48,591 nucleotides of DNA from positions 1-48,591 of the forward strand of contig CAISTG010000024.1 of assembly GCA_903888345.1 (NCBI GenBank), given 5' to 3'. The notes beneath the pieces were generated by a model. That model worked only from the letters and a program-made list of their open reading frames with translations. It was not told the DNA's origin and searched no databases. Shown piece by piece: positions 43-27,900 of this stretch; within the stretch, counting starts at the first letter, position 1; each line of letters begins with the position of its first letter. The position numbers and the translations under genes were made by a program. Origin of the DNA: Candidatus Buchananbacteria bacterium. Lineage in GTDB: Bacteria > Patescibacteriota > Patescibacteriia > 2-01-FULL-39-33.

Positions 43-1071
43 ATGATAATTTTAGCCATCGAAACATCTTGTGATGAAACTTCAGCCGCGGTTCTAAAAG
101 TGAACCGAGGTCAATTAGAATTATTATCAAATATTGTTTCTTCACAAATAGATATTCATAAACAATATGGCGGGGTGGTGCCAGAAGTAGCGGCTAGACA
201 CCATATAAAAAATATTATCCCGGTAATTTCTGAGGCATTAAATAAAGCCAAAATTAAACCCGAAAAAATCGATCTCTTAGCGACAACAGCTGGACCGGGA
301 TTAATGACCTCGTTACTAATTGGTGCTGAAACAGCAAAGGCTTTAAGTTATGCTTGGGGTAAACCCTTACTGGCTATTAATCACATGTATTCGCATATTG
401 CCGCTAATTTTTATAATAATAAAATTAAATTTCCCGCAGTTTGTTTGGTGGTTTCTGGTGGTCATACTGAGTTAATCCATCTGAAAAGTTATTGGCAATT
501 AAAGAAAATCGGTCAGACGATTGACGATGCAGTTGGTGAAGCTTTTGATAAAGTTTCGAAATTATTGGGCTTAGGTTATCCTGGTGGTCCAATTATTTCT
601 GCTTATGCCGAAAAATATCGAACTGATTTAAAATTTCCGACTATTAAATTACCGCGTCCAATGCTTAATAGTAAGGATTTTAATTTTTCTTTTTCTGGTT
701 TAAAGACGGCTGTTTTGTATGCTTCACAAAAATTTGTGCATCATGATGAAGATTTTAAAATAGCGATGGCGCACGCTTTTCAAGAAGCCGCAGTCGAGGT
801 ATTAGTAACTAAGACTATCAAGGCAGCCAAGAAATTAAAAGTTAAGACAATTTTTATGGCTGGTGGAGTGGCGGCCAATAAGCAGTTACGCGAGGCCCTA
901 AAAAACGAGGCGATTAAGAATGGATACGAATTTTTTGTACCGGAATTTAAATTGTGTACCGATAATGCGGCCATGGTAGCCATCGCTGCCTGTTATTTAA
1001 GTCAAAAGAAAATAGTGAAAATTGATAATTATAAAAATATTAAGACTGATCCTAATTGGGAGTTGTTGTAA
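43..1071 (+). CDS. tsaD: tRNA N6-adenosine threonylcarbamoyltransferase TsaD
   Basis: TsaD transfers the threonylcarbamoyl group from threonylcarbamoyl-AMP to A37 of ANN-decoding tRNAs (t6A), working in the cytoplasm with TsaB and TsaE. The 342-aa length is normal for the family. The start ILAIETSCDETSAAVL is the hallmark N-terminal ASKHA motif. The metal-binding HxxxH is visible in INHMYSHIAA (about residues 107-116), followed by VVSGGHTEL, the GEAFDKVSKLLGLGYPGGP segment, FSFSGLKTAV, MAGGVAANKQLR and a C-terminal CTDNAAMVA. The downstream partner tsaE fits the pathway; tsaB is not in the window. The ATG at 43 is chosen because the family motif begins at residue 3. No frameshift or missing key residue is seen. 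Confidence 0.97.
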   Translation: MIILAIETSCDETSAAVLKVNRGQLELLSNIVSSQIDIHKQYGGVVPEVAARHHIKNIIPVISEALNKAKIKPEKIDLLATTAGPGLMTSLLIGAETAKALSYAWGKPLLAINHMYSHIAANFYNNKIKFPAVCLVVSGGHTELIHLKSYWQLKKIGQTIDDAVGEAFDKVSKLLGLGYPGGPIISAYAEKYRTDLKFPTIKLPRPMLNSKDFNFSFSGLKTAVLYASQKFVHHDEDFKIAMAHAFQEAAVEVLVTKTIKAAKKLKVKTIFMAGGVAANKQLREALKNEAIKNGYEFFVPEFKLCTDNAAMVAIAACYLSQKKIVKIDNYKNIKTDPNWELL

Positions 1072-1172
1072 ATATGGAACATGTAACATTGATCAGGGAT
1101 AAGGAATATTAAATATTTAATTCATTATCAATATGGAAAAGTATCATAATCAATGTTGTATATTATTTATAT

Positions 1173-1637
1173 ATGAAATATCTCTCTAAATCAGAAAAAG
1201 AAACCTTTAACTTCGCTAAGAAATACGCCAAACAGCTTCGGGGTGGCGAGGTTTTGTGTTTGGTTGGTGATTTAGGTGCTGGTAAAACGGCATTTACTAA
1301 GGGTTTGGCTGCTGGATTAGGTATTAAGAATATTATTACAAGCCCCACCTTTGTTATAATGAAAAACTACTTAATTTCTTCACCTTTACCTAAGGGGAAG
1401 TTAGGCGGTGTTACGCTTGGACCTAAAAACATTAAACATTTAGCACATATTGATGCTTACCGCTTAAGTGATGGCGATCAGTTATTGGGAATTGGGGTGG
1501 AGGATTTTTTTGAACAGGCTGACTGTATCACAGTAATTGAATGGGCAGATCGGGTTCATGATATTTGGCCCAAAAAAGCCATTCAAATAAACTTCAAAAT
1601 TTTAAAAGGCGATCAGCGAGAAATTAAAATAAAATAA
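1173..1637 (+). CDS. tsaE: tRNA threonylcarbamoyladenosine biosynthesis ATPase TsaE
   Basis: TsaE is the small P-loop ATPase that resets the TsaBD complex during t6A37 formation. The protein has 154 aa. It shows a Walker A GDLGAGKT at residues 32-39, the family motif SPTFV at 57-61, HIDAYRL at 92-98 and VIEWADR near the C-terminus. Between SPTFV and HIDAYRL, where the family usually has only a few residues, there is an extra stretch of about 20 aa (roughly 67-87, SSPLPKGKLGG...) encoded by a palindromic repeat, described separately. The gene lies 101 bases after tsaD. An AT-rich TATATT at about 1159-1164 just before the ATG may be a -10 box, which would leave a very short or no leader. No Shine-Dalgarno sequence is seen. 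Confidence 0.94.
   Translation: MKYLSKSEKETFNFAKKYAKQLRGGEVLCLVGDLGAGKTAFTKGLAAGLGIKNIITSPTFVIMKNYLISSPLPKGKLGGVTLGPKNIKHLAHIDAYRLSDGDQLLGIGVEDFFEQADCITVIEWADRVHDIWPKKAIQINFKILKGDQREIKIK
1381..1410 (+). repeat. Palindromic repeat inserted in frame in tsaE
   Basis: CACC (1381-1384) pairs with GGTG (1407-1410) and CCTAA (1389-1393) pairs with TTAGG (1401-1405) around a GGGGAAG loop. The stretch encodes SPLPKGKLGG, a peptide typical of short palindromic elements that insert in reading frame in many bacterial genomes (from memory). It lies in the TsaE linker just before the HIDAYRL motif, so the catalytic core is kept. Confidence 0.6.
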
Positions 1638-3675: not shown

Positions 3676-6600
3676 TTAGCGAGCGACACGGAAAACTTCT
3701 TCCACACTAGTTTCGCCGCTTAAGGCTTTTAGTATTCCATCTTGGAGCATTAAGACCATGCCATTTTTGATAGCTTGTTCTTCAATTTCAAAATTAGTCA
3801 CATCAGACTTTTGAATTAATTTTTGAATGTCTGGAGTATTAGGAATAATCTCATAAATCCCGAGACGTCCTTTGTAGCCAATCATACCACATTTTTCACA
3901 GCCAACTGGTTCGTAGAATTTTAAGTTTTCGGGAATTTTAACTCCAGCATCAGTACTAATGCCGGCTAATATTTCTTTAACTTCCTGTAGTTGTGATTCC
4001 GCTAATTGAACTTCCTTTTTACAGTGGGGGCAAAGTTTTCGCACTAAACGCTGACCAATAGCGCACTCAATCGAGTTGGCTAAAGTTTGGGCGTCAATGC
4101 CTAGTCCCATAAAACGGGGGATAGCACCAGCAGCTGAATTAGTATGAATAGTTGATAAGACAAGGTGTCCAGTTAAAGCCGCTTCAATGGCAGTTTTAGC
4201 AGTTTCTTCATCGCGGATTTCACCAACCATGACAATATTAGGATTTTGGCGCAATAAGGAACGCATGGCGGCGGCAAAAGTATAGCCTTGTTCGGTGTCA
4301 ATTTGGGTTTGCATAATACCTTCCAAATGATACTCGATTGGATCTTCAATAGTTATAATTTTAACGTCAGGATGATTGAGTTGATTTAATAAAGCATATA
4401 GCGTGGTGGTTTTGCCACTACCAGTCGGACCAGTAGTAATAATAATGCCTTTTGTTTTAGTAATGGAATTCATTAGGGGTTTAACGGTATAATCACGCAT
4501 ACCTAAATCTTCCACCTTAAGACTAGCGGCTTGAGATGATAATAATCGAATAACGACAGTTTCGCCATAACCACCAGAGATAATCGAGACACGAGAATCC
4601 ATTTTTGCTGCTGGAGTGAAAATTCCAAAACGACCATCCCAGGTCGCTTTTTTAATATTGGTCGGGAACCCGGCTAGAATTTTAACGTTGGATAAAATCG
4701 GCAGATATTGTTCTTTACCTAAATCCATCACATCATGCAGAATGCCATCAATTCTAAATCTCACTTTAACGCCGGCAGCGGTAGGCTCGATATGAATATC
4801 GCCGGCCTCAACTTTGAGAGCCACTGAAATAATCATGGCCGCTAGTTCTTTGGCAGGTAAATCTTTGAGGGCGGCGCTGATTTGGCTTAAGTCCCTGGTT
4901 AATTTTTCGGCTTCATCTAAATTGGTTTTGGTGATTTTAATTCCGCGGCCAATGGTTTGAGAAATTACGACATCATACAAATCTTCAATATAATCCAAAT
5001 CGCCTATTACTTTAAAGACCTCAGTCAAGTCGGTGATGCCTTGAATGATTTTATAAACTCCATCTTGCAACATGGTTACCATGCCATTTTCGATGGCCTG
5101 TTTCATAATTTCAAAATCGCCTGATCCTTCCATGGTTAACTTCTTAATATCGTCAGTCATGGTAAAAATTTCATAAATGCCGATACGACCCTTATAGCCA
5201 ATGCCCTTACAATAATCACAGCCTGGTCCCGCTTCATAAATTTCTGGTAGGGAAGTGGGTAAAGTTAAACCGGACTTCGGTGAAATGGTAGCGATAATTT
5301 TGTTAACGATTTCTGTTTCTTCGTCAGTCGGGGTATGTAATTTTTTACATTGCGGACAAATTTTACGCACCAATCGTTGGCCGATAACCGCGTTGATTGA
5401 TGGCGTCATGAAAAAAGGCTTAATGCCCATATCAGATAAACGAGGGATAACTCCAGCCGCATCGTTAGTATGGACTGTAGAGAGGACGAGGTGGCCAGTT
5501 AAGGCAGCCTGAATAGCGATGTCGGCAGTTTCATTGTCGCGGATTTCACCTACCATCACAATATCCGGATCTTGGCGCAAAATTGAACGCAAACCCTTGG
5601 CAAAAGTATAATCTTTTTTTGGATCAACCTGTGATTGGTTAATGCCCTTGAGGTGATATTCGATTGGATCTTCTAGAGTAATAATTTTAACGTCGGACTG
5701 ATTTAATTTATTCAAAATCGCATAAAGGGTGGTAGTTTTACCACTACCAGTTGGGCCAGCCGTTAAAATTAAACCATTTGGCTTGCTGATTTCACCTTGT
5801 AAAGTTTTGAAAGCAGTTGGCAAGATTCCTAAATCTTCAAAATTCAAAGCAACTGATTGGGAATGTAATAAACGCATAACTACTGACTCGCCATAAGTCG
5901 TCGGCAAAAATGAGGTTCTGACTTCAATTTTTTCTTTATCTAAGAAAATAGTAAACCGGCCGTCTTGGGGTTTATCAGTAATGTTAATTTTAACCTTAGC
6001 TAAAATTTTTAGACGAGAAATTATTTTTTTCCATTTGTCTTTATCAATTAAAGCGGAATCATGTAAAACACCGTCAACTCTAACTCTGACTGCAATCCCC
6101 TGCTCTTCTGCTTCAATATGAATATCAGAAGCATCGGATTTAAAACCAGTCGCTAGAATAATAGCAACCACGTCAGTAATGTTTACTTTATTTATTTTCT
6201 CATTCAAATCACGAAAAGTTTTGATTTCGTTTTCAAATTTTTTGATGTCCGCTTCTTTAATTTCTACGCCGCCAACGGCATGAGAAATTTTCGGCAAGGT
6301 CTCATATAGTTTCCAGGCACGTTCCAAACTGTGTTCAGAAATTAGATAAGTGATGACATGGGCATGATAGCGCTCTTCAATGTCTTTGATAACCGGATCA
6401 AGGTTGTCGGTTAAGGAAACAATTCCTAAACGAATTTCGGTACCATTATTAAAAAAACAAATTGCCTTCAATTCATGTGCCTTGTTTTCAGGAATTACCG
6501 TTAAGGCATCGGTAGAAATCGGAAAACCGACCAAATTAATATATTGCATACCCAAAGCATCGGCGTTGCGAGCAACCTCGTCTTCTTTTTCTTTGAGTTT

Positions 6601-6699
6601 TATATCAATAAGTTTTTGTGTCAGTTTACCGCCGGCCGATTTATCGTCAGTATCATTAGTAAACAAATCTTCGAGCGATGGTCCTAAATTTTGAGTCAT
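3676..6699 (-). CDS. Tandem-fused PilB/GspE-type secretion ATPase (two motors in one chain)
   Basis: PilB-family ATPases are cytoplasmic hexameric motors that drive type IV pilus assembly or type II-like secretion. This 1007-aa protein contains two full ATPase units. Unit 1 follows a GspE/MshE-type N-terminal domain (about 40-150). It has ASDIHIE, an arginine-finger segment FLPTTYGE (about 264-271), Walker A GPTGSGKT (about 314-321), GEIRD (about 384-388), an HTND box (about 410-413) and a Zn-binding CPQC...CDYC pair. Unit 2 repeats this: GDIHIEP, IISGGYGE, Walker A (757-764), GEIRD (826-830), HTNS (852-855), CPHC...CEKC. Normal PilB has about 570 aa and one unit. Unit 2 has lost the LPT of the arginine-finger loop and the Asp of the His box. 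No other pilus genes are nearby. Start ATG 6699 follows an extended -10 promoter; no strong Shine-Dalgarno. Confidence 0.93.
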   Translation of the reverse strand: MTQNLGPSLEDLFTNDTDDKSAGGKLTQKLIDIKLKEKEDEVARNADALGMQYINLVGFPISTDALTVIPENKAHELKAICFFNNGTEIRLGIVSLTDNLDPVIKDIEERYHAHVITYLISEHSLERAWKLYETLPKISHAVGGVEIKEADIKKFENEIKTFRDLNEKINKVNITDVVAIILATGFKSDASDIHIEAEEQGIAVRVRVDGVLHDSALIDKDKWKKIISRLKILAKVKINITDKPQDGRFTIFLDKEKIEVRTSFLPTTYGESVVMRLLHSQSVALNFEDLGILPTAFKTLQGEISKPNGLILTAGPTGSGKTTTLYAILNKLNQSDVKIITLEDPIEYHLKGINQSQVDPKKDYTFAKGLRSILRQDPDIVMVGEIRDNETADIAIQAALTGHLVLSTVHTNDAAGVIPRLSDMGIKPFFMTPSINAVIGQRLVRKICPQCKKLHTPTDEETEIVNKIIATISPKSGLTLPTSLPEIYEAGPGCDYCKGIGYKGRIGIYEIFTMTDDIKKLTMEGSGDFEIMKQAIENGMVTMLQDGVYKIIQGITDLTEVFKVIGDLDYIEDLYDVVISQTIGRGIKITKTNLDEAEKLTRDLSQISAALKDLPAKELAAMIISVALKVEAGDIHIEPTAAGVKVRFRIDGILHDVMDLGKEQYLPILSNVKILAGFPTNIKKATWDGRFGIFTPAAKMDSRVSIISGGYGETVVIRLLSSQAASLKVEDLGMRDYTVKPLMNSITKTKGIIITTGPTGSGKTTTLYALLNQLNHPDVKIITIEDPIEYHLEGIMQTQIDTEQGYTFAAAMRSLLRQNPNIVMVGEIRDEETAKTAIEAALTGHLVLSTIHTNSAAGAIPRFMGLGIDAQTLANSIECAIGQRLVRKLCPHCKKEVQLAESQLQEVKEILAGISTDAGVKIPENLKFYEPVGCEKCGMIGYKGRLGIYEIIPNTPDIQKLIQKSDVTNFEIEEQAIKNGMVLMLQDGILKALSGETSVEEVFRVAR

Positions 6700-6902: not shown

Positions 6903-7349
6903 ATGAAAACAGGAATAAATCAAAATTTTGGCGCAAATATTAAAATATTGCGCCAAAAACAGGGAATTTCCCAAGAACAATTGGCTCGTTTGGCCGATTT
7001 AAAGCTCTCCAATTTAGCAAAGTTGGAGGGCGGTTTTAATTCTAATCCAACCCTGAATTCTTTGATTTCCTTAGCAAAAACACTAAGTAATGGTAGTTTA
7101 GATGCTTTAGTTAGTGGACAGGTTAGTGCCGATAAACAGGTCGATTTCGGCAATTTAGGTAAGGGGATTAAGGTTTTACGACAAAAACAGGGGATTTCCC
7201 AAGAGCAATTAGCTCGAACGGCTGATCTAAAACTCTCTAATTTAGCCAAATTAGAGGGTGGTTTTAACGCGAATCCAACTTTGTCGACCTTAGAAGTTCT
7301 AGCCAAGACTTTGACTAATAATAGTCTGGATAAGTTGTTTGTTGATTAA
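6903..7349 (+). CDS. Regulator made of two tandem XRE-family helix-turn-helix domains
   Basis: A 148-aa DNA-binding protein of two nearly identical halves, about residues 8-70 and 82-147. Each half contains LRQKQGISQEQLAR, LKLSNLAKLEGGF, NPTL and a closing SLD segment, the five-helix Cro/C1-type (XRE) fold. The usual protein of this type has one domain and dimerises; here one chain could act as a built-in dimer. No sensor, enzyme or membrane domain is present. The duplication is visible at DNA level too (about 6937-7100 against 7156-7320). Its promoter carries repeated and palindromic sites consistent with self-control. It lies between the divergent pilB-like gene and the first giant gene, so it may regulate one or both; this is inference from position. 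Confidence 0.9.
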   Translation: MKTGINQNFGANIKILRQKQGISQEQLARLADLKLSNLAKLEGGFNSNPTLNSLISLAKTLSNGSLDALVSGQVSADKQVDFGNLGKGIKVLRQKQGISQEQLARTADLKLSNLAKLEGGFNANPTLSTLEVLAKTLTNNSLDKLFVD

Positions 7350-7468: not shown

Positions 7469-10400
7469 ATGAATAGAATCAAGCTACAATTAAATCGCCT
7501 CATCACCAAACCAAACTTCTCATTGGTCGGGCTTTTAGTTGTCTTGATTTTCGCTTCAATTATCTTGACGGCTCCAATTACGGCGCAAGCAAAAACTAAT
7601 AATCAATTGGCTAGTGTGACTTCTGTTATAACTAATGGCGTCAATCAAATCGGGAATTGGTTCAGTGGCTTAGCCCAACAAGTACAAACCTATCTAACAC
7701 CAAAAGCAACCCCTATTTATATTCCATATGAGGTGACTAAATATCTACCAGCAACTTCCACTCCACTAGCAGCGACTAATAATAAAGTAACGACTGCTAA
7801 AAAATCAATCGCAACTTCCAAACCAAAGACTATTGTCACCGCCGCTAATGTCACCCAACCTTCAACCTTCATCACCAATAATTATTTCAGCACTAACAAT
7901 GTTGGCTTAAATAGTTATGGCGACAATATACTTGGTGGTACTTTAAGCTTCGCTAGTGGAACGATTATCGATTTCTCCAATACTCATGTCTTCAATTGGC
8001 CTCATACTTATGGCGGTGGAGGATCTATTACTAATGTCACTAACAATTACACTTCAGCCGAAACTGATCCGTGGTTTATGTTAGCTTCATCATCACTCGC
8101 ATATCTTAAAGTAGAGTCTGATCCATTATGGTCACTGGCTTCTACTAGTTTAACTGTAGCTAACTTTGCCACCACAAGTATCTCACAATGGACAAATGAT
8201 GCCGGATATATAACTAGCGTCAGCGCGGAGACTGATCCGTTCTTCATGTCTGCATCTTCATCATTAAATTATTTGAAAGTTGAAACTGATCCTTATTGGA
8301 CCGCTGTTTCTACAACCGTACCATATTTAGCTAGTCAGAATACCTTCACAGCGACTAACACGATTGCTAATTTGATTGTTGGTGGAAAAGTGGGGATTGG
8401 CACTGTTAATCCGGTAGCTAATCTTGTAGTCAATGGCAGCACACTATTTGGTGCGACTTCATTACCAATCAATATTACACCAAATGTGACAATGCAAATC
8501 GTAGCGACTGGTGATGCGACCTTGCAATATTTGCAGATTTTATCTGATTACACTCGATCTGCTGGACTCACCTATAGTTATGATAAATCCAGCAATAATT
8601 TCAGAATATTCTCTGATTATTATGGTGCCGGCACTGAACCAGGACTGGTTATTGGAACTTATAGTAATCAAACAAAACAATTTGTGTTAGCTAAATCTGG
8701 CAATGTTGGTATTGGTACAACGACTCCAAATGCGGTTTTAAATGTATTTGGAGCTACCTCGACATTATTGCGCGTCGCAACATCGACCAATCAAAATATA
8801 TTAGTTGTTGATCAAAATGGTTATTTGGGTATTGGCACGGGATCACCAGCACGACCATTAGATGTTAATGGAACCTCTAGATTTAGAGATGCTATTTATG
8901 TTGGTAACAATGATGATTATGGCTTGTTGAGTTACACTACCGGATATTTCTCAATTCGTGGCCGTGTTAATACTAGTTTGTATTTGGGTTCAAATGATAT
9001 CTTGGGTCAAGTGGTAATTAATAGTGGCAACTTGGCTGTTGGCACAACAACTCCAAATGCCAAGTTTAATATTTATGGCGCTACTTCGACTTTGATGCGT
9101 GTGTCGACTTCGACCAATCAAAATATATTTGTAATTGATGCTAACGGTAATGTCGGTATTAATGGTTTGCCAAGTATTAAATTAGAAGTTTTTGATTCGG
9201 GTGTCGGTGCCAAAGAAGTTGGACGTTTTGCTAATACTAATAGTAGCGGTTCCACTGATGCGGTTTATGTCGGCAACTTCTTGTATACCAATTCCAGCAG
9301 TAATCGCAATGCCGGTTACATGCTGTGGGGCAAGGAGCAATTGTGGGATAACGCCGATAACTCCACCATTGATGCTTATCTCTCATTAAATACGAGAACA
9401 GATAATTCGGTTACTGAAAAATTACGTGTGACTAGCCTTGGTTATGTTGGCATTGGCACCTCAACACCAAATGCTGTCTTAAATATCTTTGGTGCTACCT
9501 CGACTTTATTACGTGTGGCGACTTCGACTAATCAAAATGTTCTTGTTATTGATCCGAATGGTTATGTGGGAATTGGCACTTCAACAATTACTAATAATCT
9601 GACAGTGGCTGGAAGTGGTCGCTTCTCCAATAATTTGTTTGTGGGCACTGATTCAACTTGGGCTTCACCGGATTTATCCGTTGGCAACGTGATTGCTTTT
9701 AGAGATTCAGGAACCCAATCGATCTGGTTTGGTGACGGAGCTCAGGGAGCGAGAAGCGCTATCACGGCTTTAAATGCAGGCACCGATTTATTATTCTTGA
9801 CCGCAGTCGGTAATAATTCCGCTACCGAAAGAATGCGAATTACGGGATCGGGCTATATTGGTATCGGCACAACCACCCCACAATCAATTTTGACAATTCA
9901 AACAACAACAGGTACTCCAGCCCTTAATATTAGTTCATCAAGTGGCGCGACGATGATGTATATGTCAGCCAATGGCAATCTGGGAATTGGCACCTCAAAC
10001 CCAGCTTACAAACTCGATGTTATTGGTGACTTGCAATTGAGTGGAGCAATTTATGGGAATGGACGCATCTGGTGGGGTAATTGGATTAATGCTGGTCCCA
10101 GTGGCTATGGCTACTCGATTAATACAGCCAACCCTTCATTTACTGGATCGGTTCCAAAATTATTTATTGGTGGCTATAATACGCCGGATTCGTATTTAAG
10201 TTCTGGCAACTTCGGTATTGGGACCACCACACCACAATCAACTTTGACAGTCCAAGCAACCTCCGGTGTTGCTGCACTTAATATTGTATCCTCAACTGGA
10301 GCTTCAATGTTGTATTTAGCTAATAGTGGCAATCTTGGAATAGGGACTGTAATTCCTGGAATCACTGGCAGTGGCAGTGCCAGTATAGTAACGGCGGGCA

Positions 10401-13400
10401 ATAAGGTTTTGGATATTGTTGGTGCGCCAGGACAGAGTGCTTTCTTGCGAGTACTTGGCGGACAAGGCGCGACACGAGGTGGATTAATTATTGGTAACGA
10501 TGATTACGGCGGAGTTTATGCAGGAACAGGGAATGGCAATGGTCGATTGGATTATGGTCAGTTCACCTTCAACAATAACAACAATACTTTCACCATCAAT
10601 CAGAATTATCCTTCCGGTTATCTTGGCTTAGGTGCGAATGCACGATCTAGCGATTTGGTAATTCTTGCTTCTAATGCCTTCGTTGGTATTGGCACTAGTT
10701 CACCGAATGCGAACTTGAATATCTTTAGTGGTACTAGCACCTTCAGTACTTTATTGCGAGTAGCAACGACTACCAACCAAAATATTTTTGTTATCAATAA
10801 TAATGGCAATATTGGAATTGGCACCAGTACCCCAAGCGCAAAACTTGAAGTATATGGAACTGACAATATGATCAAAGTGACTTATGACTCCGGCAATTAT
10901 TCTTCAATTAGAGTGTCTTCAAATGGAAGCATGTTCTTTGGTGTCGGCGGAAATGATATGTTCCAAATTGGAGCTGGCTATGTGCAAGGGAACACTGGAG
11001 CCTCAGGAATTCCGAGATTGAATTTAAGCACAACTGGTTCGACAACCCCGATTTATGTTAATAACACTGATACCGACACCGGTATGGGTATGGCGGGTAA
11101 TAATATTGTATCTTTGATTGCTGGCGGACTAAATGTGCTTAATGCAAATTCATCCGGCTATGTTGGTATCGGCACATTAAATCCAACTGCGGCCCTCACA
11201 GTAAATGGCAAAGCATTATTTGGTGGTGAAACTGATACAACTTATGCTGTTGGAATTAAAGGCAGCTTGAATGTTAATGGTGGTGGGATTGGAAGTGGTT
11301 ACAGTAATTTCCATATGGACACCTTTACTTATGGCGGAAGTTTTGTGGTTGATGGCGGATCGAGCGGAAATACATTATATATGTCGCCTGGTAGCGGTCT
11401 CACTTCATTCCAATACACAGGAATTAATTCTTCAATTCAAGTTGCTGATAGTGCAAATAATGCCAAAGTAAAGTTTAGCTCAAATGGTGACAGCTATATT
11501 ATGGGAGGTAATCTCGCAATTGGAACATCAACACCAGTCGCGATTACTGGAACGGGTGGAGCTTTATTACAACTCAATAATGCCAGTGGCGTCGGCACAA
11601 TAAAAATTGGTGAAGCCGGCAGTAATCCGGATCTGACAGTTTCTAATTCTGGTTATCTTTCTGCACCTGCCAATCATGCCTTTATTATCACTCGTGGCGC
11701 TTATCCAAGAGAATTACGAATTGGCATTGGCGATGATACAGGAAATAGCGTTTTGTCTTTCTATACTGGCACTAACCCAAGCGAACGCATGAGAATTATT
11801 AATAACGGCAATGTCGGTATAAACACCTCAACTCCAGCCGCACTAATTAATACCTCATTAACTGATAATGCAGCTACACAGTTACTCATGAATAGATTGG
11901 GTAGCACACTCGCGGCAACTGCGTTTGATTTCAACAGTGGTTATTCTCGTTTAGGAGTTATGAATGATTTCAGGTTAATGACAGGAATTGATACTTTGGG
12001 CAATTTTGCTTCCTCTACGGTTCGACTCACAGTACTTGCTTCAAATGGCAATATTGGAATTGGTACTACTAACCCGTCTAGTCAATTGTCTCTTAATAGT
12101 CAAATTACCGCCTCAGTTGGTAATTATTCTACTTTGGCTTCAACTCAAAATATTTTAAATAGCTATTATACTGGCAGTGGTGATTTATACACTAGATATT
12201 TTGATATTGCTGCTCTGGGTAATCCAGACGGAACAAATGGGGGAAGTGTCATTCGCTTCTTGACTAATCCGGTTACTGTCTCAGCGCAAGCAGTTGAACG
12301 AATGAGGATTGCGCCTAATGGTAATATCGGTATTGGTACCAGCAACCCTGCTTATCCATTGCAAGTTGTTGGCGGTATCGAAGTTGGAGCAAACAATGTT
12401 GAAAATCATGCCAATCCATCACAACTTATTTTTGGTAATTATCAGACAAGTGGTTCGACTTGGCCACAGTTTATCTTCAATGGTCCGAGTGCTTGGATGG
12501 GACTGGGTCAACTAACGACAAGTGGAAATAATTTGAGGCTAGGTGCCACACAAGTACCTGGAGCTGCTTGGAGTTCGTTTGGCACCTATGCGTTCAATTT
12601 GGCAATCGATGGTGGATTAAGTGTCGGAACCTCTACGACGTCTTCCGCACTTTCAGTACAGGCTGCGTCGGGAGTTTCTGCATTTAATGTCATCTCCTCT
12701 ACTGGAGCTTCGATGTTTACAATTAATAGTAATGGAAATTTGATAGCTAGTGGAAACATAAATGTGGCTGATGGAACCGTTGCTGCGCCAGGAATTTCTT
12801 TTGGTGGCGCATCGGGAGGCAGCAATAGTGGATTCTTTATGTATCCATCAACCAGAACAGGTATTATGCCGGTTGTTAATGGTGTGTATGCTGGACCTGG
12901 TTTTGCAGGAAATGGACTTAGATTTAACTCTGGAGGAGTAGCAACATGGTCAAGTAGCGGTAATCCTTTTGCCGCAGTTGATGATATTGGAATTGCGCGA
13001 GATTCAGCTGGTGTTTTAAAAGTTACTAATGCGTCAACTGGGTTTGGTACCTTAATTGCAGGGGTGATTGGTATTGGCACCACAACTCCGGCATATCCTT
13101 TACATGTCAGCACAATCAATAGTACTGATGCCAATGTTTTGACTCCAATATTAAATTTAACATCATATAATTCTGTTCAATCTCGAACTGAAGATTTCCA
13201 AATCCAGGTTGGCTCTGGACCAACTCGAGCAGCAAAATTTGTGCAATATGATAATGGAATTGCTTATTCAAATATCTTGTTTAATATTAATCGTTTATCG
13301 TTTACTGCCGGTGCATTTGCTGGTCTGTCGTATATTGATTTTAATGCAAATGGTTCGGAAAAGATGAGAATAGATACTAACGGTAATGTCGGTATTGGCA

Positions 13401-16400
13401 CGGCGAGTCCATTAAGTCCTTTGCATGTTTATGGGATTAAGCATGATATTCCAAGTGCTCCCGCATCTGGTAATTCAATATTTAGGATAGAAAGTAACTC
13501 AACGGCGGTATTGGATTTTGGATCACAGAGTTCATATCCATATGGAATGTGGTTGCAGTCTTGGGATAGGGGAACAGTTGATTATAAATATCCAATATTG
13601 CTGAATCCGGTTGGAGGTAATGTAGGAATTGGTACCACCACTCCAATTGCGACACTAACAGTCCAAGGAACTTCCTCAAATCCATTATTACATATTACAA
13701 CCTCATCAACTGCTTCGGCTTTGTATGTGGCTAATAATGGGAATGTCGGAATTGGAACAATGTCGCCTAGTGATACTTTACAAATTTCTGGTGTCAGCGC
13801 TGGTTTGACTATTGCGGGAACGGACAGTTCCAATGATTATATTACTATAAACGCTCCGTATTCTGCAGGAATTGTTGTTAATAGAGGTAACACGACTAGT
13901 TATGGTTATACCAAATATCAGACAGCTTCTGTGGCTGGATGGGCAACAGGTTACGCCTATAATGGCGCAACACCTGATAGTGGTTTTGCGATATCGACAG
14001 CCGGAACTTTGGCAACAGCAAAATTGTATGTTGATACTTCTGGCAACGTCGGTATTGGTACAACGTCTCCGGCGTATAAATTGGATGTAGCAGGACAGGT
14101 TAATATCGTATCATCGGTTTATGCGCCATTAAATATCACAAGAAATACAGCCAATGGTTCTGGTTCTGTTTGGGGAGCGCAAAAGTTTATTTTGAATCAA
14201 GCCGACAATTCTCAAAGTGGTCCAGGGACTTATTACATGGCCAACAACTCTGCTGGTGCAACGACTTTCATTGGTATGTTTGGTGGTTATATGTCAACCG
14301 TCACTGCTGGATCAGAAATTGGTCAACTTGTATTTGGTGCTGCTTATCATGGCGTGGATCCGGGAGCTAATAAACATCTGACAATTACCGCGACTGGTGC
14401 AAGTACTGGTGATGTCTCAATTCCAAACGGCAATCTATTTGTTCCGACAGGCAATTTGAGTGTTGGCACTACGACGCAATTGGCGAGAATTTCTGTTCAA
14501 GCGGCTCCTGGAGTTTCGGCTATTAATATTGCTTCCTCAACCGGCGCTTCAATGTTTACAGTAATGCCTAATGGCTATGTTGGTATTGGTACAACAAATC
14601 CATTATATAATTTTGTCTTAGCCTCCTCGAGCTCGATACCTTCCACTATTGTGACCCAAGGTAATGGATCAAATTGGATTTTTGCAAATAGTGCTGGTGC
14701 GCCTTCAGGACAAATTTATATTACTGGAACAAATAGTTATTTTGATTATCTTGGGGCAATGAATTTTAGAGCAGGCTATAATGGCACAACAAAAGTTAGT
14801 TGGGATAGTGCTGGAAATGTGACTCAAGCAGGAAATCTAACTGTTCAAGGGGTGGGCAACACATCGTTTGCGGGCAATGTTATTATCGGTACCACGAGCT
14901 TAAGTCAATTGTTTGAAGTCTATGGCGATGCTACAAGATTCCAAGTTGCCGCGACTAGGGGAGTATATGTCAATAATGAGCTTAATGGAGGAACCGTTGC
15001 CGCAGCTAGTGATCTATATATTGGCTATCGCAATAGCAATAATTTCATCGATATCAAGCGAGGTAGTTTGAGGGTTGATACTAATGGTAATGTTGGAATA
15101 AACTCAACTACTCCTTCAGCAATGTTGTCCGTTTTGGGTACTTCAACTTATCCATTATTAAACCTTGTCACATCTTCGTCTGCATCATCACTGTATGTTG
15201 CCAGCAACGGCTATGTGGGAATTGGTACCGCTACTCCAGGCAATAAATTACATATCGCAGCTGCCGATACTGAAGGAATTACAATTGTGTCACCTTCAGC
15301 CACTGCATATTACTATTCACGTTATACGGATGTTTATTCCAGCGACTACACCTTTAATACTCATAACGCCAAAAATATCGGGTTTAATCCGCAGGATGGC
15401 GGCAAGATCTTCTTTGGCAGCAATGTGGCCGCGGCGAAAATGTTGATTGAGACCAATACTGGCAATGTCGGAATCGGCACCTACACACCTGGCGCCATGT
15501 TGGCAATTGTTGGCACCTCAACTTATCCGTTATTGAACTTAACCACCTCATCCACTGGTCAGTCGCTATATGTAGCTAATAATGGGTTTGTCGGCATTGG
15601 TAATTCTAATCCGAATTTCATTTTTGATGTTGCTGAAACTAAGACTGGTGGTACTCCTGGGGCGAAACCAATGGCGCAGTTTGTTATGAATGTTAATAAT
15701 TCTGTCGACTTTACAGGTTGGGCACCAGAAGCCTTCTTGGCTCGGGCCAATAATTCCGGAGCCGGTGGCGTATCAAATGTCATAACTGGATTTGAGGCAA
15801 TAGTGGCGCAACAAGGATCTGGATTAATTAATAGTGCGCGAGGATTCAGTGCTCAGATTCAAAATAACTCTGCCACTGGAGTTATAACAAATGCCAAGAC
15901 GGCCGAATTGAATATTCCATACTTTGGTTCGACTGGAAGTATTATTAATCAATACGGTTTGTACGTTCAAAATCAGGGCAATGCTCAAGTGACCAACTCT
16001 TATGGTATATATTTGACTAATCAAACAGGTGCAACCACAACTTACTCAATCTATTCCGTTGGTGGTAACAATTATTTGGGTGGCAATTTGGGAATTGGAA
16101 CAACTACTCCAGCGGTCAAACTTTCTGTGGTTGGTGATTCATATTTTGGTGGCAATCTAGCTGTCACAGGTAAAGCGTCTTTTGGTGGCGCGACTTATGG
16201 AATATCGTTGAATAATAATGAGATAAATACTGGCTTCAACAATAATGCCAATGATGCGCTGTATCTCAATTATCGTGGTTACGCCGATGGTACTACTCAG
16301 TTCAGAGATTTGTGGGTTGGCGATGGTAAGAATCATAATTTGTTATTTGTTGATGGCAGTACTGGTAATATCGGTATTGGCACCACCACACCACAAGCAA

Positions 16401-19400
16401 CTTTGACGGTGCAAGCAACTTCAAGTTCGGTTGCATTAAATGTTGCTTCATCTACTGGCACTTCGATGTTTATGGTCGCGACTAATGGCAATGTGGGAAT
16501 TGCTACAGCAAATCCAACCTACAATTTGGATATTGCAGCTTCTGGTCCAGGTTATAACCAATTAGCTATTAGCAGTGGAGGCATGAAATCATATTTGACT
16601 GGTGGTGATGGTAGCGCTGGATGGTCAATTAATAGACGTCCTTCCGATGGTGTTTTCTTCGATACGAATAAGACCAACGCGGGTATTACTCTATCAACAG
16701 CTGATTCAAACTCATTTATTTCATTCTCAACTGCAAATACTAATAATGCTCTAGCAACAGAGAGAATGCGAATTGATAAAAATGGATATGTGGGTATTGG
16801 TACGACTGGAGCTGGATATTTGACTGATATCGTCGGTGGAGCTGATGGAACCGATACGACTTTATTGCAGATACGTTCAAATTATATTTCCAACAACACT
16901 GCCGCCTCGATTAGTTTCTTAAATAGTACTTCTGATAATGCTTCAAATGGTCGAGCGATTATTACTGCAGTAAGAACAAATGCTTTAGCGTCTGGTGATA
17001 CTGATTTATTATTCAAGACAACTCCTGGAGGAGGAGCACCGACAGAACGTCTAAGAGTTAGCGCTTATGGAAATATCGGCATTGGCACCTCGACACCTTT
17101 GGCACTTTTACATTTAGGATCAGACTCGGGCGTAGCCACTAGCGGAATTCAATTTGGCAGTGATGTCAATTTGTATCGCTCGGGCGCTAACACACTTTAT
17201 ACTCCCGACACATTAATTACCGGCTCGACACTTCAGGGATCAAACATTGTTGCACAGTCAGCTATTAATTCTTCAATATTCAGAGCGGGAGCAGATAATG
17301 TGACGATGGCACTGCAAACAATTAGATCATTTAATGTCGCAGGAACAAACGTCAGTGTTTCACCAGCAACGACGACTAATAGCGCCGGAGTGGTTACTAC
17401 CTTTGCAATATCTCCAATCTATAATCAAATAGGAACGGCAGGTGCGACTGACTTATTAATTAACCGCACGGAGGCTGGTTTGGGAAGTGGTCCGCAATAT
17501 TTGATCGATGCTCAAGTTGGTGGAACAAGCAAGTTTGTGTTGACTAATAGCGGTTATGTCGGGATTGGGACAACAAGTCCGGTTACAAGTTTACAAATAA
17601 CTGCTGATAAGGCAAACACTGGAAGCTTAAATTCGCCCCAAATGATCATAAATGGAACCTCAGTATCTACGAGACAACTACGACTTGGCATGAATACAAC
17701 AGATAATTTTGGTTGGATTGAAAGCACAAACTATGGACTTAATTCTCAGAATTTAGTTTTACAACCATATAGTGGCAATGTCGGCATCGGCACCACAACG
17801 CCTAGTGAAAAATTACAAGTTTATGGTGGTGTCTTAAAGTTAGACGATGGTGTTGTTGATCGACATGGCGCGGTTATCAAAGACGGCTATGGCAATGTGA
17901 CTTTTAGAGGAATCCATGGAAATTATTATTGGGGTGACAATCCGGCCAACACTACTTCATTCCAAGTTGGTGCTACTGGAGATAATATCGTTTTCACCAC
18001 TGCACAATCCACAATAGCACCGAGAATAATGATGCACACCACTGGTTTCCAAGTTAATGGAGGTGATTATACAACTGCTGCTCCAACTGGATTGTTTGAG
18101 GTGACAAATGGTACGACAAAAATATTTGATATCCTATCGTCTGGTAATGTCGGTATCGGAACAACCTCGCCAATCTCAACTCTTTCAGTCAAAGGTACAG
18201 CTGGAACTAATCCGTTTACTATTACTTCTTCCACTGATGCTTCGATGCTTACAATTTTGCAAAATGGCAATGTGGGAATTGGAATGAGTAATCCCAGCAA
18301 GACGCTAGATATTAATGGGACTTTACAAACTAACAATACTGCCTATTTTGTTAATGTTGGCTATTTAGATTCTCAAAATCTGGGTCTCGCTGTTAATGGC
18401 TTTGGTATCTATTCTAATTCTGGTCGAGCTATTTCGTTTAATCCTGGCGGATTACAAAGTATGGTTATTAGGGAAATAACTGGCAACATCGGAATCGGCA
18501 CCACCACTCCAGTTTCAAAGTTAGATGTGTTTGGTGATATTAATATTTCTGCTGGCAGCAACTATAAGTATAACGGCGTAAATATTATGTCAGCTAGTAC
18601 GACGTTAACCAATTATTTCTTCGGTGGCGCTGGTAATACGACTATGACTGGTAGTAGAAATACGGGCCTTGGTTATCAGAATTTACTCAATAATACTTCT
18701 GGTTCTTATAATGTTGTCAGCGGGTATGTCAGTATGAGTCAAAATACTTCCGGTTCTAGCAATGTAGCCAATGGTTATGCAGTACTTTCAAATAACTCAG
18801 GGGGATCATATAACACCGCCGAAGGTTATCGCGCCTTAAGGTTTAGTGTTAATGGTCAAGGAATGACAGCGGTCGGTTACCAGGCCGGTGTTGCGTATTA
18901 TGATTTTGTTGACACCAATTCTGTGAACGATAATTACGGAACCTTTATTGGTATGTATGCTTCCCGCGATAGTAATGTTGCCTCAACTACAGTTATAAAT
19001 AAATCGACGGCAATTGGCTATAACGCCAAGGTTGGTGGTTCAAATATGATGGCTCTTGGTGGCATTGGAGTAGACGCGGTGTTGGTTGGTATTGGCACCT
19101 CCACCCCACAAGCAGTTTTGACGGTCCAAGGATCTTCAACTGTTCCCGCGTTATTGGTTGCTTCAACAACCGGAAGTTCGATGTTTACGGTGGCGGCGAA
19201 TGGAAATGTCGGTATAGGTACGGCGAGTCCGGTAGCTAAATTTGAAGTTAATGGGACGATTTTAGGGCAAGGCTTAAAGGATACGGCAAATAATGCTCCA
19301 AATACTTTCAGTAATGCTGATTTTGCTACTTACTATGGAACCGCATCAAATTGGGGAGGCATCGGAGGTTATAATAGTGGAGCTACTTGGTTGCGAGGTG

Positions 19401-21901: not shown

Positions 21902-24900
21902 ATGAAAAGAATCAAGCTACAATTAAATCGCCCAAACATCAAACCAATGGCACAAATTGGTGGGCTTTTAGTTGTCTTGATTTTGTCCACCTTTGTTTGG
22001 ATGACTCCAGTTCAGGCACAAGCACCAGCCACCAACTTCTCAAACGTAATTACCAATAGTGTTAATCAAATTGGCAGTTGGTTCAATGACTTATCGCAAG
22101 ATATCCGAAATATCTTCGTGCCAAAATCAGCCACTGTCTATATCCCTTACCCGGTCTTCCAATACCAACCAGCAACTGGCACTCCAGGCAAGATGGTGGT
22201 TAACAGTAATGTCGTTAACAAGAAGACAACAACAGTAAAAGCGAAGACTGGCAGTAGCAACACAGCAAGTGTCACCCAACCTTCAACCTTCATCACCAAT
22301 AATTATTTCAGCACTAACAATGTTGGTTTGAATGGTTATGGCGACAATATACTTGGTGGTACTTTAAGCTTCGCTAGTGGAACGATTATCGATTTCTCTA
22401 ATACCCATGTCTTCAACTGGCCCCATACTTATGGTGGAGGTGGTTCGATTACTAATGTGACTAATAATTACACTTCAGCAGAAACTGATCCGTGGTTTAT
22501 GTTAGCCTCATCATCATTATCATATTTGAAAGTTGAGTCTGATCCATTGTGGTCACTGGCTTCAACGACTTTGACAGTTGCTAACTTTGCTACTTCTAGT
22601 ATTTCACAATGGGTGAATGATGCTGGATATTTGACTAGCATCGGTGCGGAGACAGATCCAGTCTTCATGTCTGCTTCTTCATCATTACCATATCTGAAAG
22701 TTGAGTCAGATCCGTATTTTATGGCAGCCTCTACTTCATTAGCTTATCTAAAAGTAGAAACTGATCCATATTGGTCGGCAGTCTCTACAACCGTGCCATA
22801 CTTGGCTAGTCAGAACACCTTCACGGCGACTAACACGATTGCTAATTTGATTGTTAATGGCAAAATTGGCATCGGCACTGTTAATCCAGAACAAAATTTG
22901 CAGGTTGTTGGTAATATTTATGCAACAGGTGATTTGATGCTTTATCCTGGAGCCAAGATTGCTTTTGACAAATATGATACCAACCGTTCTTCTATCCGAA
23001 CGAGTGGAGTCGCAACTGCTGATATGTTATTCCAAACCAACGGCGGGTCACGCATGTATATTTCTAATACCGGTTATGTCGGTATCGGTACCACCACACC
23101 AAACGCCAATCTAAATATTTTTGGCACAACAAACACCTTATTGCGTGTGGCAACTTCTTCTAATCAAAATATTTTCATTATTGATAGTAATGGCAATGTT
23201 GGCATTAATGAGTTATCGCCAACAGCTAAGTTGGATATCGCTAATGCCCTAAATAATGTACCAACTGCAACCAACCAGAGTTTGATGTTCTCACGTGATG
23301 ATGGCGTACCATATTATGGCATGATGTTAGATTCATCTTCCAGATTGAAATTCACTGCTCGCGCTGGTAGCGATTGGATTACTGCCCTGTCAATGGATCA
23401 ATTTACCAATATTGGAATAGGTACTACGACCTCAGCCGTATCTTCACGCTTGACGGTTCAGGCTCTACCAGGCGCTTCCGCGTTTAGTGTCGCCTCATCA
23501 ACTGGTGCCTCACTATTGTATATCGCCGCAAATGGTAATGTGGGAATTGGGACTAATAATCCTGACGCTGATAAGACATTAACAGTTATTGGTCAGGGAA
23601 GATTCTCTAGTTCATTGACGGTTAATGCAAATTTCAGTAGCGGAGGCTATGTCGCGGCTGGCACCGATTTGTATGTGGCGAGAAATTCATATTTAACTGG
23701 ATTAGTTGGTATCGGCACCTCAACTCCGGTCTACAATCTTGATGTTTTCGCCAACGCCAACACCCAGAAGGGAATTTCTGTTACTAATGCCAGCACTGGC
23801 ACCAGCGCTCAGGCTCGTGTGGATTTGTATAACAATCTGGGTTCGGTTCAATCTGGAAATGGCGCCTCGCTCTTCTTGACTAGCAGTAATTATTCACCTT
23901 CTTCTTACGCCAATGCTTTGGGCTTCTGGAATTATCAGAATGGTCCGGTTATTATTGCTGCCAATAATACGGAAGCAATGCGCGTGACAGCCACTGGCAA
24001 TGTCGGAATTGGCACGTCAAATCCAAGTGGCAAATTTGAAGTGTTTGATTCTAATGATGTTGGCATGAGTTCGAGCGCCTTTAAGGTTGACACCGTCAAT
24101 CATGTTATTTATCTTGGTAGATTATCAACGACTGTTGGAAGTAGTGACGACATTATAATGCAAAATAGAGTCGGAACAAAAATCATGGAATTTAGAAACT
24201 CAAATGGAATTGTAAATATTGGTGAGCAGGGTAGCTCTGGCAACACTGCTCCAATCAATTTCTATCTCAGTGGCAACGTGAAGGCCACAATTTTACAAAA
24301 TGGCAATTTCGGAATTGGAACTTCGTCCCCATCCGCAACTTTGCACGTTAATGGACAGTTGAATACTGAGGGCAATGTTAACTTATTGCCAACTGGAGCT
24401 GCTGGATCCAGTGTTGGAATTTATTTCAATCAATCACGTTCCTCACTTTCTTATGACGGAGTGTTAAACGGTACGAATTTAAATATTGGCACTAGATTAT
24501 TTGATATCAATGCTAGCAGTATTTCTCGATTAAGAATTGACGCCACTGGAAATATCGGCATTGGCACCACAACTCCAAACGCCAAGTTAGTTGTTCAAGG
24601 AACTTCGACCACTCCATTATTAAGTATCAATACTTCATCAACTGGATCAGCGCTATTTGTTGATGCGAGTGGTAATGTTGGAGTCGGAACGGCTGTGCCT
24701 GCCTATCCATTAGACGTTAATGGAAATACTAGAATTTGGGGTGTATTGACTTTATTAAATGGCACTTCTTATGGCATCATTGCTGGAAACGCAAAATTAA
24801 ATTTGTATGATAACGCTGGTAATGCGTCCTATCAAAATACTTATCCGGGCTGGGGTTTTGGTGTTGGAAATATTTCGCCAACCTATACTTTAGATGTAAA

Positions 24901-27900
24901 GGGCAATGGTGCGGTAGGCGGTATGTTTAATGTGGCATCATCAACTGGAGTTAGCGCCTTGATGGTTTCAAATTCTGGTTATGTGGGGATTGGTACTAGC
25001 ACGCCAAGCTCACCTTTACATGTTTATGATATTAGAAGCGGTGGTGGATTGGTATCACTACGAACACAAGGAACGGTGACTGGACAAAATTGGTCTGGAG
25101 CAATCGCTGCCGGCGGTCAAAATGTCGCTTTCTTGATGGGTGAGTATAATGGCATGGCTTGGTTGGGTGCAAATAATCCTAATTTATCCTCTTGGTCTGA
25201 TTTCTATATTAATCCTGATGGCACCAAGAAATTATACTTGGGTTCAAAGGGTGGTTACAGCGGAGGCGTCGCCATGACAGTTGATAATAGCACCGGCAAT
25301 GTTGGTATTGGCACAACAACGCCAGCCGATAAACTGACGATTGACGGCGGATCGGCAAATTTGCGTTTTTCAGGAAGTGGTACCCATAACATTCAATCTA
25401 CGGCCGGCTTAATAATCATAAATAACCTTAATCAGCTAACCTTTAATAATGGAAACTATATTAAACAAAACTATCCGGTTGATTTTGCAAATACATTTTT
25501 TGGTGGCACATCTTCGAATTTGCCAATTATGACTTGGAGTGATACTGGCCTTGTCGGTATTAATTCAACGACTCCAACTTCTAATTTGTCAGTCAAGGCC
25601 ACGGCCGGAATTAATCCGTTAAATGTCACTTCATCAACCAACTCCTCGATGTTGATGGTGGCCAGCAACGGTAGAGTAGGCATTAACACTACCGCTCCAG
25701 TAGCAGGTTTCGATCTTACGGTTGGTAGCAATGATTATATTCGTATGTTTGATTCCTTTACCAACGGAACCAATAGCACAGGCAATGTGTTGGTAGTTAA
25801 GAGCTCGAATAATTCTGCCCCATTATTGACTTTGACGGGAACCGGAAATGCCGACCTTATGAATTTGTATTCAAGTTCGTCAGTTCGTGTGTTGACGGTT
25901 TCAAATAGTGGCTATATGGGAATTGGCACAACAACTTTGTCTTCGACCGTAAATATTCAAGCGGCCTCCGGCATGTCCGCACTCAATGTTGCATCTTCAT
26001 CTGGCAGCACAATGTTGACCGTCGCAAGTAATGGCAATGTAGGAATTGGTGTTTCGAATCCTAATTATAAATTAGCGGTCAATGGATCTTTGGTGGCTGG
26101 TAATTCTTCCGATGGGCTATATGTAAATCCAGGTACTTACGGAGTAAATCTTACCGGCTTAGATATTTTGGGTAACGCCTTTAATGGCGTAGGAATCAGC
26201 ACCAGAGTTGCTGACAATCCAGACTTCTATGTTGCTACAACTGGCAATGTCGGCATCGGCACAACAACACCTAACAGTACTTTGCATATCGTGGCTCAGG
26301 GTGGTGTTGTTCCATTCACAGTAGCCTCTTCTTCTGGCATGGCAATGGTTGCGATTAATAAAACTGGTACGATGATCATCGGTTCAACTTATGCTAACAG
26401 CGCTAATTACTATTCTTACGGCGATGGCTTCTTGTTGATGCAGTCTAATATCGGCTTTATCGGTACGACTGCTCATTATTTACAAAACGTTTCTAATAGT
26501 GATGTTGGAATAAAGATTTGGAATGGCTCGACTGACGTTATCCCAATGACCGCGCATTCAAGCGGTAATGTGGAATTCATGGCTGGCAATATCGGTATCG
26601 GAACTTCAAGTCCGCAAACAAAACTCGATGTTTGGGGAAATATGCAGGTTGGTACAGCCGCGACGCCATCTTTGTTCGTGGACTCGGCCACAGGTTATGT
26701 GGGTATTGGTACTAACGGCGGTTCGGCAACCTATAAACTTGATGTTAGCGGAAATTTGCGCACTCAAGGCTATTTATATAATTCGACCAAAACTTTGTCG
26801 CCAATATTTGCTGAAGGCTCTGGCGAAAGAAATGGTATGTGGCTTTCATTCCCTAATTCCACTACTGAATTAAGAGCCTCTGATGGAACTTCAACTGCCA
26901 GAATTAGATTAGATGGCGCAACTGGCAATGTCGGTATCGGAACAACAACACCAAATGCCAAGCTGAGTGTGGATGGGAATGCTTTCATTGGTGGTAGTTT
27001 GACTACGACGGGAAATCTAACTATTCCAGCCTGGGGTGGTGCGAATTCAGCTCCTTCGTTGGTTATAGGTAGTGATCCGACATATGGGTTATTGAGAGTT
27101 AATGGTAATGCTAGTGTCGCGGTTATTGCTGCCAGTACTATTGCTGCTCAATTTACTAATGTTGGAATTCAGGCAGCAGGATATGGCATTCAAAATTATA
27201 CCAACCCACGATTAGGCGGATTGAATTTGACAAATGGATCAGTGGCTTGGGGACCTAGTACATCAATGGATGTGAATATCTCGCGCATTGCTACTAATAC
27301 GATCGCTGTCGGCACTGCCGCTGATCAAAGTACCGGAGGAACGTTGATTGTAGGAAGTATTGGCATCGGAACATCGACACCATCGCAATTATTAACGGTA
27401 GGTAATAATAATCAATTTACAGTTACAGCAGGAGGTACAGTTAATATTGCCAATGGCACTAGCTACAATATTGGTGGGTATACTATTTACGGTAATGTTG
27501 GTGGCGCGGCTTATGTGCCAACAGTATATAGTTATGGAAATTTCCAAACAACCAATACTGGTTATTATGGTTTTTCAGCTGACGCGACAGCTTATCATTC
27601 TGCAGATGCAGGAATTTCTCGTGGAGGATCTGGTAAGTTGTATATCGGAAATGGCACTGTAGGAGATTATACTGGCGCAATGATTGCGGGAAGTATTGGT
27701 ATCGGAACATCGACACCTCAGGCAACTTTGACGGTCCAATCGAGTTCGAGTGCAATGGTTATAAGTGTAGTTTCTTCATCTGGCACTTCATTATTTACGG
27801 TTTTGCAGAATGGTAATGTGGGAATTGGAACGGCGAGTCCCGAAACTAATCTCGAAGTTAGCGGTAATGCCAGCGTCTTCAATCTTCGTGGCACTGCGAC

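Follow-up and report, generated by a model that had tools for sequence, protein, structure and literature searches.

Two PilB/GspE-type ATPase cores are encoded here in a single polypeptide, and this tandem motor is beyond doubt a real, old design. Its gene lies on a contig of 48 591 nt from a Candidatus Buchananbacteria bacterium, analysed at its full length (the window). The explanation that we consider best as a whole, with a probability of roughly 0.58, is a once-fused orphan motor, both of its ATPase sites active, three chains of which would form an alternating pseudo-hexamer that works without a dedicated PilC.

The first-pass annotation had read two PilB-type motors in one polypeptide, and indeed a single ORF carries two Pfam T2SSE domains (E 1e-232; Table 1); aligned with each other over 436 aa, the halves share 49% identity (E 1e-142). 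The protein runs N1D-N2D-CTD, followed by a conserved linker of 23 residues and a further N2D-CTD. The alignment of Geobacter PilB with the first half starts at residue 19 and covers the N1D-type domain; the second half is without an N1D, yet it retains a counterpart of the last N1D helix and of the N1D-N2D connection. Mean pairwise identity of the linker among 30 tandem proteins was 0.71, equal to that of the best core and above that of either N2D, and its Y575 is invariant (n = 33); a linker conserved to this degree must be a structural part of the protein rather than slack. In a single-chain AF2 model (pLDDT 83, pTM 0.48) the predicted modules are PilB-like, the relative placement of the halves is not fixed and the cores are connected by ∼50 residues in three helices; TM-scores of each module (by target) to chains of 5tsh and 5it5 reached 0.94.

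Table 1. Positions of the tandem motor gene, its parts and related features (window coordinates unless a locus is named)
Feature	Position	Strand	Details
Tandem PilB-type ATPase gene	3676..6699	-	Single uninterrupted ORF, 1007 aa, ATG start; orthologues 55-75% identical, full length
N1D (MshEN-like) domain	6280..6648	-	Residues about 18-140; once per chain; MshEN sub-threshold, E 0.028
First motor core, N2D+CTD	5002..6255	-	Residues 149-566; T2SSE 407.8 bits; catalytic residues invariant
Walker A, first half, GPTGSGKT	5734..5757	-	Residues 315-322; from sequence; one S319 change, otherwise invariant
Inter-motor linker	4933..5001	-	Residues 567-589; conserved; predicted helix 569-584, in a position like that of the last N1D helix
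Second motor core, N2D+CTD	3679..4932	-	Residues 590-1007; without an N1D; T2SSE 369.7 bits; groups with every other second half in a single clade
Second-half signature loop ISGGYGE, in place of LPTxxGE	4561..4581	-	Residues 707-713
Walker A, second half, GPTGSGKT	4408..4431	-	Residues 757-764; one S761 change, otherwise invariant
Second-half GEIRD, catalytic Glu827	4210..4224	-	E827 in 32/32 (class of the window genome) and 22/22 (second class)
Second-half His box HTNS	4135..4146	-	His852 kept in 32/32 (class) and 21/22 (second class); residues after it vary
tsaD and tsaE	43..1637	+	Syntenic neighbours, common to single-copy relatives
PilB-like protein without Walker A	L170 6682-7764; L175 10358-11416; L177 11395-12438		Also in PilC-less genomes

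A search of related genomes for the same fusion, as the first-pass annotation had proposed, returned full-length, open, colinear tandems in 30 of 381 sampled genomes of the window genome's class; full-length tandems were also present in 40 of 286 genomes of a second class (that of G641) and in distantly related genomes from other parts of the phylum. In the window genome's own family the tandem is present in three genomes and the single form in seven. We left G596 (L068/L084) out of the counts as possibly a misbinned contig; the DNA of L084 (contig C27 of this genome) is 83% identical to the G022 locus despite the other class, likely a misbinned contig or a transfer. ORFs of 955-986 codons (G044, G049, G051) were considered as tandems and rejected, since they hold single PilC-linked PilBs. 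In G005 a single orphan gene occurs twice on contig C46 (4361-6061 and 103014-104714), with equal scores, in opposite orientation and near both contig ends, which suggests a terminal repeat in the assembly.

A careful tree was built from 88 cores: first halves, second halves, single orphans and PilC-linked PilBs. In this tree a branch with 100/100 support separates all the orphans (first halves, second halves and single copies) from the PilC-linked PilBs. All second halves, including one from the second class, form one clade (bootstrap 100, SH-aLRT 99), recovered again with support 98 in a quicker tree with two extra rows from that class; as the second halves are monophyletic, the tandem arose once. 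First halves of the window genome's class form a clade too (100/100), placed beside the single orphans with joint support of 99/93. The simplest reading of these trees would be one old duplication and fusion, with the second half lost later in the single-copy lineages. A recent duplication was rejected: the halves are just 70-74% alike in patches of DNA, and their split in the tree is older than the class. Also rejected was a sister relation of fused first halves to the single copies of their own family (AU test, p 6.7e-5). In family f1 the tandem (in G002) and the single form (in single-copy genera) occupy the same chromosomal place, in the order FtsH, a six-transmembrane (6-TM) protein, the motor gene, tsaE and tsaD; of these shared neighbours the window genome's locus has tsaD-tsaE alone. 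The same place with ungrouped first halves in f1 points to in-place replacement or to an old polymorphism.

PilC, the usual partner in the loci of other PilBs, was not found beside the orphan-lineage gene in any orphan locus examined; each PilC found adjoins another PilB. This holds for the window genome, which has three such PilC genes as well as a prepilin peptidase. In family f23, 13 of 40 genomes are without any T2SSF domain, and 11 of these 13 keep a motor placed in the orphan lineage by the tree. Nine of the 11 assemblies have a completeness of 90% or more, and in 10 of them no other T2SSE-family ATPase exceeds the cut-off; the f23 copies are of the single-copy form. An unfiltered profile search of one whole genome (G031) recovered a PilM and a single PilB, which is the orphan; it found no PilC, the best E being 0.36. 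L159 (G732) was not counted: there is no PilC in the assembly, but its PilB is of the PilC-linked type in the tree. The orphan lineage thus appears independent of PilC; no such claim is made for pilins. A wholly pilus-independent role was in fact not supported, as PilM, a GspG-like pilin and prepilin peptidase persist in genomes that lost PilC yet keep the motor. The peptidase is kept in nearly all PilC-less f23 genomes; at L170-L176 it is found in a small cluster with PilM and the GspG-like pilin, in many cases also with a PilB-like protein that lacks Walker A. The latter (hhalign probability 91%, E 1e-6), encoded in f23 between PilM and a response regulator, may serve a minimal pilin system as a pseudo-motor.

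The other neighbours of the lineage are tsaD, tsaE, FtsH, S1, the 6-TM protein and a Translin-family or a DHH protein; in the window the two neighbours are assigned by family as tsaD and tsaE. The Translin-family protein (PF01997, E 1.4e-18; L073 5230-5802) is encoded directly downstream of the tandem gene at 13 loci. The 6-TM membrane protein (∼340 aa, without a Pfam family; L092 7789-8808 and 35 other loci) is encoded immediately 5' of the orphan motor gene in most genomes; it was present in 14 of 14 tested, weakly in the second class. As a remote PilC it was rejected (hhalign probability 0.2%). An obligate pair with the motor is also unlikely, since the protein is present in G333 without an orphan motor and is unlinked to the motor in the window genome.

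By sequence, motifs and predicted fold the tandem is assigned to the PilB/GspE ATPase clade; three features that define PilB proper are absent. The lineage falls across the 100/100 branch from the PilC-linked PilBs, the gene is not beside PilC in the orphan loci examined, and the chain has two motor cores, not one. With the link to PilC missing, the name 'PilB' (pilus extension motor) is not established.

One could still suppose that the tandem is an extra extension motor of an ordinary type IV pilus, acting on PilC encoded elsewhere, and that the fusion merely fixes stoichiometry. The three PilC genes and the prepilin peptidase of the window genome agree with this, as do the PilB-like fold of each module and the precedent of PilB and PilT, known as separate motors that share one PilC. 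However, retention of the orphan in 11 of the 13 genomes without detectable PilC, with none in G031 even when unfiltered, speaks against an ordinary role, which we regard as possible and do not favour. Somewhat more doubtful is a bolder reading, in which alternating non-equivalent modules with C3 sequence symmetry would drive pilin-type or other membrane machinery without PilC, the single-copy form being the sole motor of a minimal system (PilM, degenerate PilB paralogue, GspG-like pilin and prepilin peptidase) in PilC-less genomes.

The preferred reading, a fused orphan motor in a three-chain ring, would work as follows. According to the tree and the distribution, a PilB/GspE-type motor was duplicated and fused once, long ago, in the orphan PilB branch of Patescibacteria. 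Both modules would, most likely, bind and hydrolyse ATP, and the most likely assembly would be a pseudo-hexamer closed by three chains, its two module types alternating around the ring, much as the first-pass annotation had envisaged. PilB subunits are joined by packing of each N2D against the CTD of the neighbouring chain (PMC5424180); by the same packing, the second N2D of the tandem can pack on the first CTD of its own chain, and the finger arginines of each module would reach the ATP site of the opposite type. The connection of 50 residues, conserved helix included, would replace a free subunit boundary. The ring is probably a cytoplasmic motor at the membrane, acting on a pilin system without a dedicated PilC; where PilC was lost it may push on another membrane partner.

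Several points count against this reading. Known PilB rings have C2 working symmetry (PMC5424180), whereas three tandem chains would give C3 sequence symmetry and thus unlike opposite sites. Single-copy orphans exist in sister genera, so the lineage can do without the second half. One tandem protein (L070) has, moreover, a damaged His box in its second half. Also, in PilC-bearing genomes the orphan may share PilC with the other PilBs.

Six chains could instead stack as two hexameric rings, with the first halves in one and the second halves in the other, in the manner of p97 or ClpB. The second half has its own complete set of interface residues (R690, R703, R718 and R887), and the modelled three-helix connection of ∼50 residues is long enough to span either geometry. 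Nevertheless, known PilB and GspE rings are single hexamers (PMC5424180), two rings would share the conserved PilC-facing pore, and the second half has no N1D for seating. We consider stacking, the chief alternative for the ring, unlikely and favour the three-chain pseudo-hexamer.

The residues of Geobacter PilB described as universal or mechanistic are R257, R271, R286, T327, E357, E395, T411, H413, H420 and R455 (PMC5424180); we mapped them via the alignment, allowing for the 20-residue tag of the deposited chain. The second-half counterparts (R690, R703, R718, T759, E789, E827, T843, H845, H852 and R887) are kept in 32 of 32 proteins of the window genome's class, save T843 (Ser in ∼6%), and in the second class (n = 22) with a single degenerate exception, L070 of G685, with a damaged second-half His box. 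The Walker A Lys, Asp-box Glu, catalytic Glu and first finger Arg are invariant in 54 of 54 second halves. Motifs of the PilB/GspE clade (Walker A, Asp-box Glu, catalytic Glu, His box and two arginine fingers) occur in both halves of 32/32 proteins in the one class and 21/22 in the other, and the four-Cys zinc motif is invariant in both halves (C448, C451, C494 and C497; C890, C893, C934 and C937). The earlier statement that Walker A, GEIRD and Cys pairs are intact in each half is thus borne out. From these residues both ATPase sites look competent, and a dead second half is rejected for nearly all members.

The halves are nevertheless different, as the first-pass annotation had maintained, and the asymmetry is lineage-wide. 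At 16 positions the first halves agree with the single orphans (≥90%), and this residue is hardly ever present in second halves; no position shows the opposite pattern. The clearest fixed changes from first to second half are T267 to G709, D377 to N819, S356 to T798, G369 to A811, P244 to T686 and N436 to E878. In the window genome's class T267 is present in 32/32 first halves and G709 in 32/32 second halves, with G in 19 of 22 second halves of the second class; the D to N replacement is likewise fixed there (21 of 22). We regard LPT to (S/A)GG and RQDP to RQNP as real second-half changes. The asymmetry is fixed and one-sided: the first half has kept the ancestral residues and the sole N1D, and the second half has specialised. 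The altered loop, ISGGYGE at the position of LPTTYGE, is as had been described; it had been called the arginine-finger loop, but it sits between the finger arginines (R261 and R276; R703 and R718), all of which are kept. Likewise HTNS is present where HTND had been expected, but the fourth residue is D, N or S among second halves, and so is not diagnostic.

These fixed changes, together with faster evolution of the second half and loss of its His box in one lineage, could suggest a regulatory pseudo-ATPase that merely holds the ring together; such a role is improbable, as the catalytic residues invariant in 54/54 second halves would not be expected under relaxed constraint. Finally, an assembly artefact that joined two genes, which nothing favours save the odd architecture, is ruled out for practical purposes by ∼70 open colinear tandems in two classes with a conserved junction. 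The first-pass annotation had named this artefact, and two separate genes in relatives, as outcomes that would speak against the fusion; neither was seen, the relatives' loci examined having one core or a tandem and never a split pair of adjacent motor genes.

Most of the contig is occupied by three consecutive giant ORFs on the + strand (7469-21646, 21902-33484 and 33732-44807; 4725, 3860 and 3691 aa). The first encodes a repetitive, fibre-like protein of GIGTTTP type with a Peptidase_S74 chaperone domain near the C-terminus. Divergent from the motor gene, a 148-aa protein (6903-7349, + strand) has two near-identical HTH_3 units that stem from a 113-nt direct repeat (81% identical), a second internal duplication adjoining the motor gene.

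We found no description of a tandem PilB in the literature, in a search that was thin on subscription papers; this silence is weak evidence of novelty. The firing order of PilT-like rings is debated, opposite pairs (C2) or alternating sites (C3) (PMC5424180, PMC6858323). If two kinds of module are covalently ordered in a natural ring, each kind could be mutated separately, at every second position, with no need to engineer concatemers. Given the orphan lineage, a PilB-like gene in Patescibacteria can also no longer be assumed to mean an ordinary PilB-PilC pilus, which bears on how pili are read from these genomes.

Among known systems, the tandem resembles PilB, the type IV-A pilus extension ATPase (TIGR02538; Geobacter 5tsg/5tsh), in the N1D-N2D-CTD order of its first half, in Walker A, Asp box, catalytic Glu, His box, two finger arginines and four-Cys zinc site, and in fold. 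It differs in having two cores and one N1D per chain, and its lineage is never beside PilC in the loci examined and is kept where PilC is absent. With GspE, the type II secretion ATPase (TIGR02533), it shares the ATPase core, and this family gave the best NCBIfam score (907 bits); the tandem core sets it apart, as does its locus, where the type II secretion operon is absent and encoding among type II secretion genes, expected of a GspE, was not found. Thermus PilF (6f8l) also has a PilB-type core in an enlarged chain; there the enlargement consists of extra N-terminal GSPII domains on one ATPase core, compared with two cores in the tandem. Chains with two ATPase modules in tandem are otherwise known from two-ring AAA+ proteins such as p97 and ClpB, which belong to an unrelated class of ATPases and are architectural analogues only.
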